A DNA stretch of 64,000 nucleotides from assembly GCA_019694395.1 (NCBI GenBank), contig JAIBCC010000008.1, positions 114,501 to 178,500 on the forward strand, written 5' to 3'. The position numbers were made by a program, and so were the translations under genes. Each line of letters opens with the position of its first letter. The first letter of the stretch is position 1. The notes beneath the pieces are model-generated. The model did not search any database. It saw only the letters and a program-made list of their open reading frames with translations, and was not told the DNA's origin. This DNA comes from Pyrinomonadaceae bacterium. Its GTDB lineage: Bacteria > Acidobacteriota > Blastocatellia > Pyrinomonadales > Pyrinomonadaceae. Positions 5,047 to 35,201 of the stretch are shown here, piece after piece.

Positions 5047-5934
5047 ATGGAATGGAAAGGCGTGATGCCTGCGATCACAACTTGTTTTGATGAAAACTTG
5101 AACATTGACCACGAATTTACGGCAAAGCACGTTAAATGGTTGGTCGAAAACGGCTGCACGGGAATTGTCTGCAACGGGAGTTTGGGCGAAGGCGCGACGC
5201 TTTCGTTTGAAGAAAAAGTTGCGCTTTGGAAAACTTGTGAAGCAGCGGTTGGCGACCAAGTGCCGATTGTGGCGGCGATTGCCTCGCTTTCAACTGCCGA
5301 TGCGGTCGCGCAAGCTAAAGCTGCCGAATCCGCAGGTTGCCAAGGTTTGATGGTTTTGCCTCCCTACGTTTATCGCGGAGACTGGCGCGAAATGAAATAT
5401 CACATCGCCGAAATTCTCAAAGCAACTCCCTTATCGTGTATGCTTTACAATAATCCAGTCGCTTACGGAACGGACTTTTTGCCTGAACAAATTGCGGAAT
5501 TAGCCGAAGAATTTCCAAACCTTCACGCGGTCAAAGAATCAAGCACAGACGTTCGCCGTGTGACTGCGATTCGCGCTCTGATTGGCGATAAATTATCAAT
5601 TTTAGTCGGTGTGGACGATGCGATTGTTGAAGGAATTGCGGCGGGTGCAACGGGTTGGATCGCAGGATTGGTCAGTGCTTTTCCGAAAGAATCGGTTGAC
5701 CTTTTCAACTATGCAATGAACGGGGAATCAGAAAAAGCGTTTGAACTTTATCGTTGGTTTTTGCCGCTTTTACGGCTCGACACCGTGCCAAAATTCGTCC
5801 AATTGATTAAACTTGTCCAAGAGAAAATCGGAATGGGAAGTGCCAGAGTCCGTCCGCCGAGAATGGAATTGGTCGGGCAGGAATTGGAAGAAACTTTGGC
5901 GATAATCGAAACGGCATTGGCTACAAAGCCTTAA
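5047..5934 (+). CDS. DapA-family deaminase, probable 1-pyrroline-4-hydroxy-2-carboxylate deaminase
   Basis: A 295-residue class I aldolase-type barrel of the DHDPS/N-acetylneuraminate lyase family. The Schiff-base lysine is Lys163 in HAVKESSTD and the catalytic tyrosine is Tyr134 in MLYNNPVAYG; NGSLGEGATLS is the carboxylate-binding loop. Some members of this fold deaminate 1-pyrroline-4-hydroxy-2-carboxylate to 2-oxoglutarate semialdehyde, exactly the step needed between the dehydrogenase genes upstream and the semialdehyde dehydrogenase downstream. The start at 5047 is set by an AAGGAG eight nucleotides upstream; the in-frame ATG at 5005 lies inside a repeat. True dihydrodipicolinate synthase is the alternative, less likely here. 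Confidence 0.88.
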   Translation: MEWKGVMPAITTCFDENLNIDHEFTAKHVKWLVENGCTGIVCNGSLGEGATLSFEEKVALWKTCEAAVGDQVPIVAAIASLSTADAVAQAKAAESAGCQGLMVLPPYVYRGDWREMKYHIAEILKATPLSCMLYNNPVAYGTDFLPEQIAELAEEFPNLHAVKESSTDVRRVTAIRALIGDKLSILVGVDDAIVEGIAAGATGWIAGLVSAFPKESVDLFNYAMNGESEKAFELYRWFLPLLRLDTVPKFVQLIKLVQEKIGMGSARVRPPRMELVGQELEETLAIIETALATKP

Positions 5935-11950: not shown

Positions 11951-13120
11951 ATGCTGGAAAATGTCGAAAAATTTATCTCCGGGTTCGCTAAATCTTTACA
12001 CGAAGAAACTTTTATCAAACTTACTTTAGGCAATTATAAAGGCTCAGATGAACATTTACAAAAAATTCTGGTGCGGTTGGTTGATACCAAAAAAGGGAAA
12101 AGGCTTTTCTTTCTCTATCGCTACGACACGCGCGACACGGCGAAAAATTACGATTTTAACGAAGGCATCAAAATTTTGCGTCACACTCTCGGCACAGAAT
12201 TCATGGCAGGACATCTTTTTACGACCAGTAACGATTTTCAATTAGATATCGGTAAAAAAGGGAAATCACGATTAAATACTGCAAAACCAACATTTAAACT
12301 TAAACCGACCACTTCGCACGACCGCGAGAAACGCCGTTTTGTGCAGCAAGATTCGTTTTATTTGCAGGCACTCGGAATCACTACTGATGCAGGTGAAGTT
12401 CGAGACAAACAACAGGATAAATGGAAGCAAATTAATAAATTCGTTGAGACTTTGGGCAGATTTTTTGAAAACTCATTATTGGCAAACCGTAAAGAATTGA
12501 AAATCGTTGACATGGGTTGTGGCAAAGGTTATTTGACTTTTGCGACCTATGATTATTTCAAAAATATTCTCGGCTTGGACGTCAAAGTAATCGGCGTAGA
12601 TACTAAATCGGAGCTGGTCGGATTGTGCAACGATATTGCTAAAACGTGTGAATTTAATGGTTTGCAGTTTGTGAACGGGTGGATTGGCGATTATGATTTG
12701 CAGGATACCGATATTTTGATTGCCCTTCACGCCTGTAATACGGCAACTGACGATGCAATTTACAAAGGTATCAAAGCCAACGCAGATTTAATTGTGGTCG
12801 CGCCGTGCTGTCATCAGGAAATCCGCCCGCAAATCAAATCTCCGGAGATGCTGAGCGGAATTTTGCGGCACGGTGTAATGATGGAAAGGATGGCGGAAAC
12901 GATTACGGACGGGTTGCGTTCTTTGCTTTTGGAAAAAAGCGGTTATTCAACCAAACTTTTTGAATTTATTGCCACCGAACACACACCGAAAAATAATATG
13001 TTGGTCGGCACAAAGTTGGAAAAGAAAAGTGCAGCCGTCGAAACTGCCGCGCAAATCGCTGAAATAAAAGAATTTTACGGAATTAAAGAACAAAGATTGG
13101 AAACTTTGCTCAATTCCTAA
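11951..13120 (+). CDS. SAM-dependent methyltransferase (Methyltransf_32-like)
   Basis: A 389-residue class I methyltransferase. The SAM-binding motif is IVDMGCGKGYLTFATYDYF at about residues 180-200, followed by IGVDTKSELV and the motif ALHACNTATDDAI. The stretch VVAPCCHQEIRPQI resembles the CCH-containing motif of the Methyltransf_32 group (as in the C-terminal domain of GSTCD). The N-terminal ~170 residues look like an additional substrate domain. Substrate unknown, possibly RNA. The start is ATG 11951 (or 11945). Its stop overlaps the stop of the convergent VWA gene by four bases. Confidence 0.82.
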   Translation: MLENVEKFISGFAKSLHEETFIKLTLGNYKGSDEHLQKILVRLVDTKKGKRLFFLYRYDTRDTAKNYDFNEGIKILRHTLGTEFMAGHLFTTSNDFQLDIGKKGKSRLNTAKPTFKLKPTTSHDREKRRFVQQDSFYLQALGITTDAGEVRDKQQDKWKQINKFVETLGRFFENSLLANRKELKIVDMGCGKGYLTFATYDYFKNILGLDVKVIGVDTKSELVGLCNDIAKTCEFNGLQFVNGWIGDYDLQDTDILIALHACNTATDDAIYKGIKANADLIVVAPCCHQEIRPQIKSPEMLSGILRHGVMMERMAETITDGLRSLLLEKSGYSTKLFEFIATEHTPKNNMLVGTKLEKKSAAVETAAQIAEIKEFYGIKEQRLETLLNS

Positions 13121-14235
13121 TTTTTGACGAAATATCCTTGTCTCGCCCGCAAACGAAGTTTATTCGGATTAGTCAGATTAACGTTCAATTTGACGTATTT
13201 ATTTGCCGGAAATTCGGCTTCCGAATAGTATTGCACCAAATATTGGGCTTGTAATTCATTGGCTAACTGCCGGAAAATTTGGGTCAAAGTTGCCTGATTT
13301 TGCCGGATATTTACGGCATTTTGATAGTTATCCTTTAAGTTGATCGAAGCAAATTTCGGCAAAAACGCCGTTCCACCGGTTTCGTCCGCGAATTTCTGCA
13401 AATTGCTTTGTCCAAATTCGCTCATTTTGTTTAACTGATACGATCCGCCGCCCGGATTTATCGAATAAAAAACCGAATCAGCAAGCTGGATGCTTTGCAA
13501 AACTTTATTTTGCTCTTTCACTTTTGCTTCATCCCGGGCTTTAACTCGAATGCTTCGCAGCTCATCATTGCTGAGATTATTCTGCATAATTTTACTCTCA
13601 GCATCCCAAATTGCTTTAATTACTCCGGCACTGTTCGTATCGTCACCATCAGAAATTGCAACTAATACTTTACGTCTTCCTTGCGGGGAATTTTTTTGTA
13701 AATAATTAGCCGCAAAGCGAACCGAATCATAAAAAGCAGTTTGTTCTTTAGTTGGTCTGATGTTTTTAATTGAAATCTGAGACGTTTCTGCCGAATCACG
13801 GGCTTGGATCAGCACCGGTTTTTCACCAATGGTAAAAATTGTCGCGCGATCTTCGGGGCGCATTACCTCTTTTAGAAATTGCGAAGCCGTATCCAGTTCA
13901 AATTGGAACATTGCATCCGTGCTGGCGGAAACATCGAAAAGCAGTGCAATTTCCAGCGGAACTTTTTCAGCATCACTAACTTCGGCAATTTCCTGTGGTT
14001 TATTTTCTTCGGAAATCTGAAAATCTTGTTTTTTCAAACCCAAAACGGGTTGTCCATTTACGTCGGTAACTGACACTGGAACAATAACTAAACGCGATTC
14101 GACTTTAATGACTTCATCATCATTAACCGGAGTCGGACTGGGAGTTGGTTTTGGCGTTTGGGCAAAACTTGGTAAGGCAAAAGTAAAAAGTAAAAAGGCA
14201 AAAGTTAGAAATTTTTCAGAATTCAAATTTTTCAT
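13117..14235 (-). CDS. Exported VWA-domain protein (Acidobacteria type)
   Basis: A 372-residue exported protein. A signal peptide (FLTFAFLLFTFALPSFAQ) and a Pro/Thr linker precede a beta-sandwich stretch (VIVPVSVTDVNGQPVLGLKK) and a von Willebrand A domain with a MIDAS-like motif (LLFDVSASTDAM, ~residue 115). This layout is the VWFA-related family that is abundant in Acidobacteria; function unknown, possibly adhesion or envelope assembly. A second member lies at 15509. ATG 14235 is used because the hydrophobic core follows at once. The signal-peptide region overlaps a GTAAAAAG-type repeat. Confidence 0.88.
   Translation of the reverse strand: MKNLNSEKFLTFAFLLFTFALPSFAQTPKPTPSPTPVNDDEVIKVESRLVIVPVSVTDVNGQPVLGLKKQDFQISEENKPQEIAEVSDAEKVPLEIALLFDVSASTDAMFQFELDTASQFLKEVMRPEDRATIFTIGEKPVLIQARDSAETSQISIKNIRPTKEQTAFYDSVRFAANYLQKNSPQGRRKVLVAISDGDDTNSAGVIKAIWDAESKIMQNNLSNDELRSIRVKARDEAKVKEQNKVLQSIQLADSVFYSINPGGGSYQLNKMSEFGQSNLQKFADETGGTAFLPKFASINLKDNYQNAVNIRQNQATLTQIFRQLANELQAQYLVQYYSEAEFPANKYVKLNVNLTNPNKLRLRARQGYFVKN
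14176..14205. repeat. GTAAAAAG-type tract inside a signal-peptide coding region
   Basis: The + strand reads GGCAAAAGTAAAAAGTAAAA and continues in the same period. On the coding (minus) strand it encodes the LTFAFLLFTFA hydrophobic core. The same tract type is found between genes at 16842, 22733 and 25477. Confidence 0.8.
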
Positions 14236-27873: not shown

Positions 27874-28040
27874 GAGTTTGAAAGTGAAAAAGTTTAAATG
27901 TGAAAGATTGAAAAAGTTGCTTTCAGTCATTTCAATTATCCGGTTTTTAGCTACACAAAACCAACGCTTTTTGACAGTAAGTGTATTCAAATACTTAACC
28001 GTTCAAACTCTTTCACTTTTCTGCTCTTTCACTTTTCTTA
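27874..28040. repeat. Intergenic dyad repeat, GTGAAA type
   Basis: Left arm 27874-27919 (GAGTTTGAAAGTGAAAAAGT and similar units), right arm 28001-28040 (CAAACTCTTTCACTTTTC, then a second CTCTTTCACTTTTC unit). It covers the 3' end of exbD up to its stop codon. Confidence 0.75.
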
Positions 28041-28484
28041 TTCCAAATTATCAATTTGCAAGCCAATCGGAGCTGCTCCCGATTGTTTGACGGCATCTAC
28101 AATTTTGGCAATTTCACCGTATTTCATTTGTCGCGGAGCTTTGATAAAAACGGTCTTTTCAATTTCATTGGTTCCGGGACGGAATGCGCTGCTTTCTTCT
28201 CTTTCGTGAAAGGTTTGCGAAAGTTTTGAAATTAGATTTTGCGGTGCATCAACGGTTCCAAAGTCTTTTTGGTTGTTGATTTCAAGCGAAAAATCCGAAT
28301 TAACACTGACAACCAAAGTGTGCGGATTTGGTTCTCCGCCTTCTGTGGGTTCATTTGGAATATTGGCTCTGAAAGCAGACGGTTTGAGCGGGGAAATGAC
28401 CATAAAAATAATTAACAAAACGAGCAGCACATCAATTAACGGTGTAACATTGATATTTGGGGAAACTTGTTTATTTTCTGACAT
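28038..28484 (-). CDS. ExbD/TolR-family biopolymer transport protein
   Basis: A 148-residue inner-membrane protein. A short cytoplasmic N-terminus leads to one membrane helix with the conserved proton-pathway aspartate (NVTPLIDVLLVLLIIFMVIS), then a periplasmic domain. ExbD works with ExbB/TolQ to energise TonB or Tol systems. No ExbB or TonB gene is in the window, so it is either an orphan copy or pairs with a distant set. A TonB receptor gene lies 4 kb away on the opposite strand. Confidence 0.9.
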   Translation of the reverse strand: MSENKQVSPNINVTPLIDVLLVLLIIFMVISPLKPSAFRANIPNEPTEGGEPNPHTLVVSVNSDFSLEINNQKDFGTVDAPQNLISKLSQTFHEREESSAFRPGTNEIEKTVFIKAPRQMKYGEIAKIVDAVKQSGAAPIGLQIDNLE

Positions 28485-29957: not shown

Positions 29958-30638
29958 AGAAAGTAAAAGATTAACACAGAAGAATTTTGAAATAGCGTCT
30001 AATTTTCTCAAAGCTAAAAAAAATTGAAATAGTAGGACGTTCACTATATGTTCACATTTTTGCAAAGTCACCATCTAAATGGGGCAAAGTGAATGAAGTT
30101 TCAACTTGATAAAGTCTATTAAGTCTTGCAAATACTAGACTTTCCCTTCTCTTTTTTTTGGAGGTATGATTGGAGATAGTTGAAATGGAATATTGACTTT
30201 TTGAGAAAACCAGTTTCTAATAAGTCATCTCAAATGTTTGAGTAATTTGATTTAATCGTTAAATTTAGGATTATTTCAGAACTTCCCAATTTACTCGCTT
30301 AACTCTCATCTCCCCCAAATGAGCAATCAGAAGTGTGTTTGCGAAATCTGAAATAAAATCAAATAAAATCTAATGTTTTCTAAGTGTGATTTATAAAAAA
30401 ACATACATAAAAAGCCCTGAGGTTAATGGCATAACCAACAAGGCTTGTATGTTTTTAGCGTCTCTGCTGTGGGTTAGACAACAGATGCTTGTAAAAAAAC
30501 AAACACTTGTATCATAGCGCAAAACTCAGAAGAGGCTCAACCAATAACTCAAGAATTGGATATGTTTGTGTTTTTAGTTTGTCTATTCATCTTCAATTCT
30601 TAATAGCTAAATTTATAATTTTTAGGAGAAGTGAAGTT
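29958..30638. other. AT-rich non-coding stretch with hairpins upstream of the Cys-rich peptide
   Basis: No convincing protein gene in 681 bp. It is the left edge of an AT-rich island. A compound hairpin lies at 30396-30456 (listed separately), followed by a stretch with further iterated words (CTTGTA...ACAAACACTTGTAT). The far right holds the SD (AGGAGAA) for the peptide gene at 30639. Possible leader RNA or small RNA. Confidence 0.5.
30396..30456. other. Compound hairpin (possible structured leader RNA)
   Basis: AAAAACATACA and AGCC on the left pair with GGCTT and GTATGTTTTT on the right; inside, GGTTA/TAACC forms a second small stem. A T run follows the right arm on the + strand. It could be a terminator/attenuator or part of an RNA gene. 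Confidence 0.5.
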
Positions 30639-30836
30639 ATGAAAAAGAAAATTATTGTTTCAATTGCGTGTTTGTTTTTGTTTGTTGCATCGTTTGTGGG
30701 AACAAACGCTGTTTATGCTAAAGCTTTCAATAATGGTGGATGTAATGCCGATGATGCCAATGCTTGTCGACTTATTGGTTGCTCTGGTTGTGGTTCAACC
30801 AAAGGTGGTGGATATGTGTGTATAGGTTGTCCATAA
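30639..30836 (+). CDS. Exported Cys-rich 65-residue peptide
   Basis: A 65-residue protein with a clear signal peptide (KKKIIVSIACLFLFVASFVG, cleavage likely after VYA). The mature part is about 37 residues with six Cys (35, 43, 48, 51, 61, 64), four of them as two CxxC pairs (CSGC and CIGC), plus Gly/Asn-rich spacers. I do not recognise the family. The layout (small signal-bearing Cys-rich peptide beside a redoxin) recalls the NVEALA small proteins of Bacteroidetes, but I see no NVEALA motif. A good SD (AGGAGAA) fixes the ATG; an in-frame upstream extension destroys the signal peptide. Disulfides or metal binding are plausible. Confidence 0.78.
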   Translation: MKKKIIVSIACLFLFVASFVGTNAVYAKAFNNGGCNADDANACRLIGCSGCGSTKGGGYVCIGCP

Positions 30837-30966
30837 GCTGAAGCTGAGGCAGTGGCTTACTAATCTATTTAAGTAAAATTAGTGTTTAAATAGTCGGATA
30901 ATGCAGAAACCCGCATGAAGTAAAGGTGTAACACAAAGCAAGTTTACTCCGTGAGTGTTTCTGCAA
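30834..30966. other. Series of hairpins directly after the peptide gene
   Basis: Three consecutive dyads: TAAGC/GCTTA (from 30834), CTATTTAA/TTTAAATAG (around 30863-30892), and a long stem TGCAGAAAC (30902-30910) with GTTTCTGCA (30957-30965). The last encloses AGTAAA/TTTACT. No long T tract follows. It could stabilise the mRNA 3' end, terminate, or be an independent RNA. Confidence 0.52.
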
Positions 30967-31131
30967 TTTACACAATTTTATATCTAGCAATTTTTTTTTT
31001 GATTAGATAAGAAATGTTAGATTTGGTTAAAGTTTAGAGTTAAGTTGCTTTAGGTATAACAATTCAATCATTAATAATATCTGATAAACCTAACTCTGAA
31101 ATCTTATCATTACTACACATTCAAAAGAATT

Positions 31132-31683
31132 ATGAGATTTCTAAATCACCACAAACTTGAAATTATTATCTTTTCACTTGTGATTGGGTTTGGTGCATTG
31201 ACAGCGATAGCATTCAAAAAAATAAACGAACCTAAATATGATTTTGGCAAGATTATTACAAATAATAAACCATTGCCTGAATTTAATTTTGTTGACTACG
31301 AAAATAAGCGAAATTACAATTTAGAGATGAAACAGGGCAAAATCTTGTTAATTTACATACTTACGACTTGTGGAGGGTGTCAAAATGAAGCTGATATTAT
31401 TGCCCAAAGTAATTTGCTCAAAGATTCCAAAATAAAAGTCTATGCAATCGGGAACGAGAAAAATGAGGCTTTTAGTGAATTTGCTAAAAACCACAACTTT
31501 AACTTTCCTATTTTCTTAGATGAAGATGACAAACTTAAGAATGATTTAGTCATAAATAAAGAACAAGACATAAGTATTTTCCCTGCAAATTTTGTAATTA
31601 ACAATGGAATGATTGAGAGAAGTTGGTTTGGAAAACCGCGTGACCTAGATGATTTGTATGATAAGTTAGGCGTTTCAAAATAA
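31132..31683 (+). CDS. Membrane-anchored thioredoxin-fold protein (redoxin, CGGC)
   Basis: A 183-residue protein. One N-terminal membrane anchor (LEIIIFSLVIGFGALTAIAF) is followed by a TlpA/AhpC-TSA-type domain: the strand ILLIYILTTCGGCQNEADII holds the CxxC pair Cys80/Cys83, and ISIFPANFVINNG supplies the cis-proline region in a less typical form (FPA). Topology puts the active site outside the cytoplasm, where it could form or reduce disulfides. The partner may be the Cys-rich peptide encoded 295 bp upstream. Codon use is AT-rich like the rest of this island. Confidence 0.87.
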   Translation: MRFLNHHKLEIIIFSLVIGFGALTAIAFKKINEPKYDFGKIITNNKPLPEFNFVDYENKRNYNLEMKQGKILLIYILTTCGGCQNEADIIAQSNLLKDSKIKVYAIGNEKNEAFSEFAKNHNFNFPIFLDEDDKLKNDLVINKEQDISIFPANFVINNGMIERSWFGKPRDLDDLYDKLGVSK

Positions 31684-31754
31684 ACTAACAGAAACAATCA
31701 TCATTACCTAAATAATGTTGGTTTCACCAACTAGAACTATCTTAAATACAACAA

Positions 31755-32624
31755 ATGATTACAACAACAAGAAAAGTAATTTCTTACTTAATCTTAATAC
31801 TTTCTTTTTCCGTCATTGCTTTTGGGCAAAAAGAAACAAATGAAAATTCGGCGAAAATTCGCGCTCAAGAAGTCCTAGCTGAAGCACGAAAAGCGGTCGG
31901 CTTAAAAACAGATGTTTCCAGCCTTAAAGGCTTTAGTATTTTATATGAACAGGTGGCTGAAACCTCAACCACAGATCCAAATATTACAACCGGAGAACCA
32001 ATGACTGAGAAAATTCAGATAGATACGGTTTTGTCGGATAAAATCAAAATAAATAAATCAAGGAAGATAGGTATGTCATCAGCTACTGAATTAAAAGCCG
32101 TTAATGGTGATGTCTATGAATTTCAACTTGATGCTTACAGGAATGGTGCGCCGTTTGCTTCTAAATATATAAATACGAACAGACCAGAAGATGCTCAAAA
32201 AAAGACTTCAGGTATCAATTCATTAAAATGGGATTTGTTTTTACAACTCTATCCAATCACTTTAGATGCGTCATGGTTTAGCCCTCTTGAATTTAAATTT
32301 ATTGGTGTTGCTGAATCACCCGATGGAAAAGCTGATATTCTGGAAGCTGTTTCATCCGATAAAGTCGAGTATAGATGCTTTTTTGATAAAGAAACTCATT
32401 TTCTTCTGATGCTCACAAAAACTTGGACAACTGAAGAAAATAAAGAGGCTAAAGATACATATTTCTTTTCCGATTATAAAAAAGCGTCTAATCTAATGTA
32501 TCCACACAAAATAATTCGACAAAGCACTAGAGATAGTTTTACTATCGAAAATACCATCAGCAGCATCACTATAAACACTAATCCAACCTTCAAACCTGAT
32601 TTTTTCGACATCAAAGAAAAATAG
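31755..32624 (+). CDS. Exported LolA-like protein of unknown function
   Basis: A 289-residue exported protein with a signal peptide (VISYLILILSFSVIAFGQ). The mature part has the rhythm of a LolA/LolB-type half-barrel: alternating strands such as KIQIDTVLSDKIKINKSRKI, YEFQLDAYRNG, KVEYRCFFDKETHFLLMLTK and DTYFFSDYKKASNLMYPHKI. Acidobacterial proteins of this sort are often annotated as outer-membrane-lipoprotein sorting-like, but sequence similarity to true LolA is not evident. The TonB receptor gene starts immediately after its stop (TAGATG), so the two are coupled. Confidence 0.75.
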   Translation: MITTTRKVISYLILILSFSVIAFGQKETNENSAKIRAQEVLAEARKAVGLKTDVSSLKGFSILYEQVAETSTTDPNITTGEPMTEKIQIDTVLSDKIKINKSRKIGMSSATELKAVNGDVYEFQLDAYRNGAPFASKYINTNRPEDAQKKTSGINSLKWDLFLQLYPITLDASWFSPLEFKFIGVAESPDGKADILEAVSSDKVEYRCFFDKETHFLLMLTKTWTTEENKEAKDTYFFSDYKKASNLMYPHKIIRQSTRDSFTIENTISSITINTNPTFKPDFFDIKEK

Positions 32625-35201
32625 ATGCGAATCTTAATTAAATTTTCCCTTTTCTTTTTGGTGCTGATTTTTGCTCAATCAGTTTTCGCCTTTCAAATAA
32701 CAAGTTTGAATTTGCGAGTGGTTGACCAAAATGGAGATTTAGTGCCGAATGTTACGGTTGAATTAAAACTTGGCAATAAAATCGTCAAGAAGATTACAAA
32801 TGAAGAGGGTAAAGAAATAGTTTTCTCAAAACTTCAATCAGGTAAATACATTTTAGACATTGAAGCCAAAGGATTTACATCTTTATCACAGGAGGTTGAG
32901 GTAAAATCCGGCAAAAATGATTTAGTCGTAAATTTAGAAATTAGCGGAATAGTTGAAAATGTAAAAATTGAAAGAGATGTTCAAGAAAAAAGTATTGATG
33001 AGGCGTTCAGTGGATTTTTCACGAGAGAGCAAATTGATGCGCTCCCTGATGAACCAAAGGAAATAGAGCAAGAGTTAAAAAGACGTTATGGCGAAGATAC
33101 GATTATTCGTGTTGATGGATTTAGCGGAAAGATGCCGAAAAAATCACAAATCGCCTCAATTAAGGCTAGTTTAAGTTCTTTTGACGCAGAAAATCACGAA
33201 CTTGGTTTTACTTATGTAGATATTATTACCAAAGTTGGTAAGGAATCATTTAGCGGAAGTCTTGGTTTGCGGTTTAATGATGAATCCTTAAATGCCAGAA
33301 ACCCTTTTTCTGCAAATCGCTTACCTGAACAAACACGCGATATTGATTTTTTCCTGGTAGGTCCATTGAAAAAAAATAATTCTTTCTTTTGGATATGGCT
33401 TGGCAATAATAGAAATCTCAAAAGGGAAAATATTATTGCCCGTCTCCCAACAGGTTCAGTGAACAATTCTATCAATAGTCAAACAACATCAAGTTATATT
33501 AGTGGCAATATTAACCAAAACCTGATAAAACAGCACGTTGCCAGAATCCAATATGATTTTTTGCATAAAGATTCTGAGAATCTGGGAGTTGGCGGTTTTA
33601 ATTTACCGGAAAAAGCATTTTCCCTTAATTTTCAACAACATAATGTGCAAGTTTCCGAATCAGGTTACATTGGCAATCGTTTTCTCAACACATTTCAATT
33701 GGAATTTACCCGTGAATCTACAAAAAGAACTCCACAAAATGAAGATACGGCAATAATTGTTTTAGATGCTTTCAGCAAAGGCGGGGCAGGCAATGCCAGC
33801 CAAAATGTGCGGCAACATCTTTGGTTTGCCGATAATTTACTGTGGGGATACAAAAAGCACGCTCTAAAAATCGGTGGTTTAGTCTCTTTTGAAACAAGAA
33901 ACGAAACGTCAAAATTGAATCAGAACGGAACTTTTTTATTTTCAAGTTTAGACGATTTTCAAGCTCAGAAACCATCAATTTTTACCCAAAATAAAGGAAT
34001 CAGAAACTCAAAAGTCTCAAACATACAGGTAGGTGTGTATTTCCAAGATGATTTTCGGATTCGGAAAAGCTTTGGTTTAAGTTTCGGCTTGCGTTACGAA
34101 TGGCAAAATAATCTAAATGATTACAATAATTTTTCACCCCGTCTAGGTTTCACTTGGTCGCCGTATAAATCAGGAAAAGCAACTTTTCGCGGGGGAATTG
34201 GACTTTTTTATAATTGGTTGGAAACAGAGACCTTATCGTTTATTGCTAATCAAAGTATTGACCAGCCCAGCGAGACAATTATTATCAATCCAAATTTTCT
34301 AAATCCGTTTCAAAACGGAACAAGTCAATTTCTACCAAAAAGCTATTGGAAAAAAGCCGATGATTTCAAAAACCCTTACGTTATTCATTCCTCAATCGGA
34401 GTTGAAAGCCCGTTGCGAAAAAATTTATCATTGCGGGCAAATTATGTTTTTCAAAAAGGGCTTCATCAATTTAGAAGCCGAAATGTAAATGCACCGATTT
34501 TAGGTGTGAGACCAAATGCGGATTTTGGAAATATTAATCAGGTTGAATCAACGGCTTTCTTTGTAAAAAATTCTCTGACACTTGGGCTTAACGGCGGAAT
34601 TACAAAAAATATTGCTTTCGGAATTAATTATACTTTGGCAAAGAAAACCTCTGATAACAATGGAGTTTTCGGATTGCCAAGCGATAATTTCAATCTAAAA
34701 TCTGATGTTTCCGCTGCTAATGATGACCAAAGACATCGGATTTATGTCTCTCTTGGTTGGAAAATCAGAAAAGGGTTACGCCTTTCGGTAATTTATACTG
34801 CAAATTCACCATTGCCTTACACAATTACCACCGGAAAAGATGAAAACGGGGATACAAATTTTAACGATCGACCTTTTGGATTTTCGCGCAATAGTGAACG
34901 TGGTCACTGGCGCAATCAATTAGATTTAGGCTTTTCATATTTTTTCTCTTTTTTCAATCGTAGTAAGGAATCTTCAGGCACAACATCCATCACAATAGAT
35001 TCTAATGAAATAAGTCCGGGTTTTGATTCAACTGATCCTAAAAAAAGATTTTCAGCGAAACTTTATATAACAGCCCGAAACGTATTAAATCAAACAAACT
35101 TTAATAGTTTTGTTGGGGTGCAAACCTCACCTTTTTTTCGTCAGCCAATTTCCGCCGAAAATCCACGCCGAATTGAATTTGGCTTGAGGTTCTCATTTTA
35201 A
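32625..35201 (+). CDS. TonB-dependent outer-membrane receptor with carboxypeptidase-regulatory-like domain
   Basis: An 858-residue receptor. Signal peptide (ILIKFSLFFLVLIFAQSVFA), then an Ig-like CarboxypepD_reg domain at about residues 27-105 (NLRVVDQNGDLVPNVTVELK, KYILDIEAKGFTSLSQEVEV). A short plug-like region follows (residues ~120-200, with DTIIRVDGFSGKMP), and then a long beta-barrel of aromatic-rich strands ending in the outer-membrane insertion motif PRRIEFGLRFSF. It would import or process a bulky ligand with TonB energy, or bind the co-encoded peptide. Start is ATG 32625, adjacent to the preceding stop. No TonB box is obvious. Confidence 0.87.
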   Translation: MRILIKFSLFFLVLIFAQSVFAFQITSLNLRVVDQNGDLVPNVTVELKLGNKIVKKITNEEGKEIVFSKLQSGKYILDIEAKGFTSLSQEVEVKSGKNDLVVNLEISGIVENVKIERDVQEKSIDEAFSGFFTREQIDALPDEPKEIEQELKRRYGEDTIIRVDGFSGKMPKKSQIASIKASLSSFDAENHELGFTYVDIITKVGKESFSGSLGLRFNDESLNARNPFSANRLPEQTRDIDFFLVGPLKKNNSFFWIWLGNNRNLKRENIIARLPTGSVNNSINSQTTSSYISGNINQNLIKQHVARIQYDFLHKDSENLGVGGFNLPEKAFSLNFQQHNVQVSESGYIGNRFLNTFQLEFTRESTKRTPQNEDTAIIVLDAFSKGGAGNASQNVRQHLWFADNLLWGYKKHALKIGGLVSFETRNETSKLNQNGTFLFSSLDDFQAQKPSIFTQNKGIRNSKVSNIQVGVYFQDDFRIRKSFGLSFGLRYEWQNNLNDYNNFSPRLGFTWSPYKSGKATFRGGIGLFYNWLETETLSFIANQSIDQPSETIIINPNFLNPFQNGTSQFLPKSYWKKADDFKNPYVIHSSIGVESPLRKNLSLRANYVFQKGLHQFRSRNVNAPILGVRPNADFGNINQVESTAFFVKNSLTLGLNGGITKNIAFGINYTLAKKTSDNNGVFGLPSDNFNLKSDVSAANDDQRHRIYVSLGWKIRKGLRLSVIYTANSPLPYTITTGKDENGDTNFNDRPFGFSRNSERGHWRNQLDLGFSYFFSFFNRSKESSGTTSITIDSNEISPGFDSTDPKKRFSAKLYITARNVLNQTNFNSFVGVQTSPFFRQPISAENPRRIEFGLRFSF

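Follow-up and report, generated by a model that had tools for sequence, protein, structure and literature searches.

An exported cysteine-rich peptide encoded beside a ResA-like redoxin in a Pyrinomonadaceae bacterium: a putative peptide system with LolA-like and TonB-dependent partners

The locus described here lies in a 64,000-nucleotide stretch of DNA from a Pyrinomonadaceae bacterium (hereafter the window) and holds four genes on the forward strand, which encode in order a 65-residue exported peptide (30639..30836), a membrane-anchored ResA/StoA-like thiol-disulfide oxidoreductase (the redoxin; 31132..31683), an exported protein with a LolA-superfamily fold (31755..32624) and an Oar-like TonB-dependent outer-membrane barrel (32625..35201). 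This order had been given in a preliminary description of the same DNA and all four genes lie where it placed them, down to the ATG of the barrel gene directly following the TAG of the LolA-like gene with a gap of zero; the start that it gave, 30396, falls upstream of the peptide, near the beginning of an RNA leader (30409..30554, forward strand). The AT-rich composition noted there is equally apparent, with GC of 0.31-0.38 and GC3 of 0.21-0.30 in the four genes compared with GC3 of 0.35-0.44 in their neighbours. The peptide and redoxin genes are separated by 295 nt, against 49-82 nt in three other loci, and so their co-transcription in the window is not assured. A stem-loop within this gap (30902..30965, forward strand; z -1.7 for the stretch) could conceivably be an attenuator.

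The peptide gene opens with an ATG at 30639 preceded by AGGAG and its stop ends at 30836. Cleavage is likely between VYA and KAF, which would leave a mature part of about 38 residues containing six cysteines (35, 43, 48, 51, 61 and 64) and the two CxxC pairs, CSGC and CIGC, that had been pointed out before. Pfam and NCBIfam searches placed the peptide in no family, and single-sequence searches with all 65 residues, as the preliminary description had proposed, returned no credible relative from 97 genomes or from viral contigs; relatives were reached only by way of the redoxin, the LolA-like gene and the leader. Comparing 21 peptides, we found a signal peptide followed by 29-60 mature residues with 4-8 cysteines, mostly acidic, the net charge of the mature part falling as low as -11 (+1 for the window peptide). 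The number of mature cysteines is even in 19 of the 21 when cleavage sites are set by hand, with the question known, and in 16 of the 21 with the automatic sites used earlier. Cysteine spacing and number differ from one peptide to the next and, whilst a C-Y-Y-x-C-like stretch is common to many of them, the remaining sequence varies so freely that common descent of all 21 is not established. No consistent lipobox was seen on inspection by eye, and in two genomes (G055 and G060) tandem peptide genes adjoin a single redoxin. Patchy distribution and variable sequence are what one might expect of a peptide used in signalling or competition.

The redoxin has a predicted N-terminal helix (residues 3-31) and a CGGC site, and matches AhpC-TSA at E 1e-12. 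Its AlphaFold model (pLDDT 74, from eight sequences) finds ResA (2f9s) as its best Foldseek match, with a TM-score of 0.80 by target, so that the predicted thioredoxin fold, CxxC motif and predicted membrane anchor together are those of a ResA/TlpA-type redoxin. The NCBIfam ResA subfamily model also matches the protein, yet far below its cut-off, and the one match from a search of genome contigs, in Flavobacterium, was unrelated. At another locus (L238, 3896-4450, reverse strand), the redoxin of genome G022 has lost its second active-site cysteine, reading CKAF where that of G042 reads CKAC, a point that weighs against the explanation favoured below. Within the four-gene set, only the peptide and the redoxin hold multiple cysteines: the LolA-like and TonB proteins carry none or one outside their signal peptides, the window barrel carries none, and the alternative partner proteins found elsewhere (see below) have few or no mature cysteines. 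The peptide is thus the natural client for the redoxin and, as the only multi-cysteine partner in the set and one with mostly even cysteine counts, is most likely what the redoxin acts upon.

The third protein has no Pfam match, but its AlphaFold model (pLDDT 88) is best matched in Foldseek by 3bk5 (E 1e-10), with Porphyromonas gingivalis LolA3, LolB and NE2245 also retrieved; TM-scores by query are moderate (0.45-0.50), and the sensors RseB and MucB match as well. On this model, the product of 31755..32624 has a LolA-type fold. The fourth protein is a barrel, scoring 165 bits against OMP_b-brl_4 (cut-off 30; E 3e-48), and a candidate N-terminal CarboxypepD_reg-like domain reaches 31.9 bits against a cut-off of 32.3. 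Its likeness to Oar is presumed from its domain make-up. An ExbD/TolR-like gene on the reverse strand (28038..28484), 2.2 kb from the four-gene locus, is a possible energiser. The window genome has three ExbD matches, each no more than about 5 kb from one of its two four-gene modules (at 28038-28484 in the window and at 12197-13179 in the second, L056). None was found at the module loci of other genomes and so we rejected ExbD as a conserved part of the module.

To follow the module, the LolA-like protein was searched for in kin genomes and the neighbourhoods of the matches were read. The order peptide, redoxin, LolA-like, TonB is found at five loci in four genomes: the window, L056 in the same genome, and one locus each in G008 (L059), G022 (L058) and G111 (L113). 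Reading frames are broken in L058 (redoxin and TonB) and L113 (TonB), and in L056, L059 and L113 the redoxin and LolA-like genes overlap by 4 bp. In a tree, the receptors of the five peptide loci fall in one clade (100/100), separate from the LolA-TonB pairs elsewhere in the sample, and the receptors that accompany the peptide therefore share common descent. That clade also takes in a third locus of the window genome (L057), where the leader is found with a 159-aa exported protein and the redoxin is absent, and a LolA-TonB pair in G130 that lacks both peptide and redoxin (L112). Since the G130 receptor groups as sister with the one from G111, a genome that does have the peptide, the more economical explanation is loss in G130. 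In the phylum sample, the pairing of a LolA-like protein with an Oar-like barrel extends to several families.

The redoxin reaches further. A profile searched over 162 genomes of the class found nine loci outside the set used to build it at 73-103 bits; eight of these have an exported cysteine-rich peptide nearby and the ninth is near a contig end. Matches at 49-69 bits are mostly without a peptide (about 1 of 17 has one within 1.5 kb). Taking all redoxins examined, 18 of 21 adjoin a signal-bearing small ORF with at least four cysteines, eight of the 21 having built the profile and one (L229) having been added because a peptide was present. Control windows gave 32 matches in 704, nearly all of them the same loci under other identifiers, leaving about five that are independent. 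Adjacency of peptide and redoxin exceeds chance, and relatives repeat the pair about twenty times. More distant cases lie in family f2 (L246 and L247) and in G151 and G002 (L248 and L229). Across a phylum sample of 347 genomes, a single marginal redoxin match fell outside the class, at a locus without such a peptide. The conserved core is the peptide together with its redoxin.

In most of the strong loci, the place of LolA-TonB is taken by exported proteins of about 220 and about 620-660 aa, recognisable by profiles of their own across about ten loci; tested representatives belong to no Pfam family. The four-gene unit proposed in the preliminary description is borne out by the five loci, but its receptor is not an obligatory neighbour, the core being found with these other exported proteins in about ten. 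Peptide homologues lacking their neighbours had been named there as what would speak against the proposal; such homologues exist as far as the receptor is concerned, whereas the link between peptide and redoxin is conserved. We count the ten or so loci without LolA and TonB against the explanation favoured below, and together with the G130 pair they indicate that neither half strictly needs the other.

The leader adds a further element. As modelled (R1), it starts with a terminator-like 13-pair hairpin that has a T-rich tail, followed by a long helix that surrounds an internal loop (GACAACAGATG / ATCATAGCGCAAAA) and a short hairpin; similarity continues to about 30615, and several genomes resemble one another in the DNA just 5' of the peptide gene despite their differing peptides. 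Thirteen copies align with a common fold in which 17 of 28 pairs are compensated at least once, and of five copies folded alone four gave z of -4.0 to -8.1, the window copy -1.3. In an alignment of 29 copies scoring above 45 bits, which was fitted to the R1 model and is hence biased towards it, 88% of pair cells are standard, a share that drops to 68% after shuffling and to 35-44% on sliding; changes on both sides occur in at least one sequence for 13/13 pairs of helix 1 and 10/10 of helix 2. We disregarded matches scoring under about 45 bits because opposite-strand matches, probably of the hairpin alone, reach 39. The copies include those at 30409-30554 in the window and at L145 (4662-4804), L057 (8021-8161) and L150 (3833-3975), and nearly all stand upstream of a gene with an exported-protein-like start, mostly 60-90 nt away. 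Class and phylum searches found strong matches only in family f1, the single outside match (G083, 34 bits) being sub-threshold. Rfam gave no gathering match for the window leader (best E 0.78 in the window) and no match exceeding the gathering score across the leader at six other loci. The leader is a structured RNA with strong covariation and is absent from Rfam. We rejected it as a module-specific element, as most copies stand ahead of other operons for exported proteins and none was matched at L056, L058 or L113; preceding more than the peptide system, it is best viewed as a linked find that does not define the system.

Several leader-headed loci deserve mention in their own right. At L145 in the window genome (3569-4528, reverse strand), the leader is followed by a redoxin (CHFC) and a cysteine-rich exported protein of 140-144 aa, a further redoxin and cysteine-rich pair with its gene order reversed. 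At L147 (about 5280-5387, reverse strand), it stands before an exported ORF interrupted by an in-frame TGA, beyond which the frame stays open, a candidate pseudogene or case of unusual decoding. One leader-led operon recurs at L150, L152, L154, L188 and L196; it encodes an exported protein (254-257 aa) followed by a lipoprotein-like one (about 250-260 aa), and most copies add a gene for a third exported protein.

Taken together, the peptide-redoxin set appears to be a genuine peptide system, as yet unnamed. The explanation that we favour, and to which we would give an even chance, is that of a small disulfide-rich peptide with a dedicated redoxin and with LolA-like and TonB proteins for handling at the outer membrane, most likely in the outward direction. 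The peptide would be exported by Sec into the periplasm, where a dedicated membrane-anchored redoxin of ResA/StoA type would make, reduce or reshuffle its disulfides; the LolA-fold periplasmic protein and the Oar-like barrel would next take over the matured form at the outer membrane. ResA and StoA are known as reductases, and so net oxidation by this redoxin is not assured. With regard to direction, Myxococcus xanthus needs Oar in order to secrete PopC (PMC6434023), which makes export the first choice without being proof of it. Going further, one may tentatively picture lineage-specific peptide secretion or communication, with variable disulfide peptides, a dedicated redoxin, exchangeable partner halves and several copies under a non-Rfam RNA used for exported-protein operons; this we hold possible, though somewhat doubtful. 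If true, these readings would give a scarcely studied group of bacteria a further family of disulfide peptides served by a maturation enzyme of its own, would offer a natural setting for testing whether peptides are exported through Oar-type TonB receptors, and would bring to light a structured RNA common to exported-protein operons.

Transport could also run the other way: having left by another route, the peptide would use its cysteines to bind a ligand or metal and would be imported or sensed by the barrel, with the LolA-like protein as a binder in the periplasm. Most TonB-dependent barrels serve import (PMC6434023), CxxC pairs can bind metals, and the matches to RseB and MucB noted above would suit a sensor. 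Nevertheless, cysteine spacing and number vary, unlike a fixed metal site, and the even counts favour disulfides, and so we consider uptake or sensing unlikely. That the peptide is secreted as a bacteriocin-like toxin, with disulfides to stabilise it, seems to us more unlikely still: its variable mature sequence, patchy presence and tandem copies would be explained, and SdbA, a thiol-disulfide oxidoreductase that introduces disulfides into secreted proteins, appears together with bacteriocin in Streptococcus gordonii papers (PMC5112981), but mostly acidic peptides do not resemble typical membrane-active ones, and neither an immunity gene nor a peptidase-containing exporter was recognised when the listed neighbourhoods were read by eye. 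That the peptide is an untransported thiol relay or stress protein working with the redoxin in the periplasm, LolA-TonB being separate passengers, draws on the loci where the core stands without that pair and on the many other exported operons headed by the leader, but is very improbable given that the peptide-associated receptors form their own clade and that redoxin and LolA-like genes overlap in three loci.

How the favoured reading sits beside known systems can be considered part by part. NVEALA peptides of Bacteroidota (Pfam PF14055) are likewise small and signal-bearing, and the preliminary description, which suggested a link to them for this locus, gives them a redoxin as neighbour. Membership finds no support in Pfam or NCBIfam: the window peptide has no match to PF14055 at E<=1, the best peptide relative (L245) scores 10.2 bits (E 0.66) where the cut-off is 27, and we rejected the NVEALA and NCBIfam peptide models since window and relative peptides fall below cut-off or do not match. 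In Oar/PopC of M. xanthus, a TonB-dependent barrel is likewise required for outward movement of cargo, but that cargo is a 50.8-kDa protease without a signal peptide and not a small signal-bearing peptide, and the passages on it describe no redoxin or LolA partner, unlike the locus here (PMC6434023). The LolA-like protein shares its fold with the LolA/LolB/RseB superfamily, from which it differs in having no Pfam match, about 10% identity and an Oar-like barrel as its pair. The redoxin, finally, has the thioredoxin fold, membrane anchor and CxxC of ResA, StoA and SdbA, but differs from them in its roughly 20-23% identity and in being tied to one exported-peptide family.
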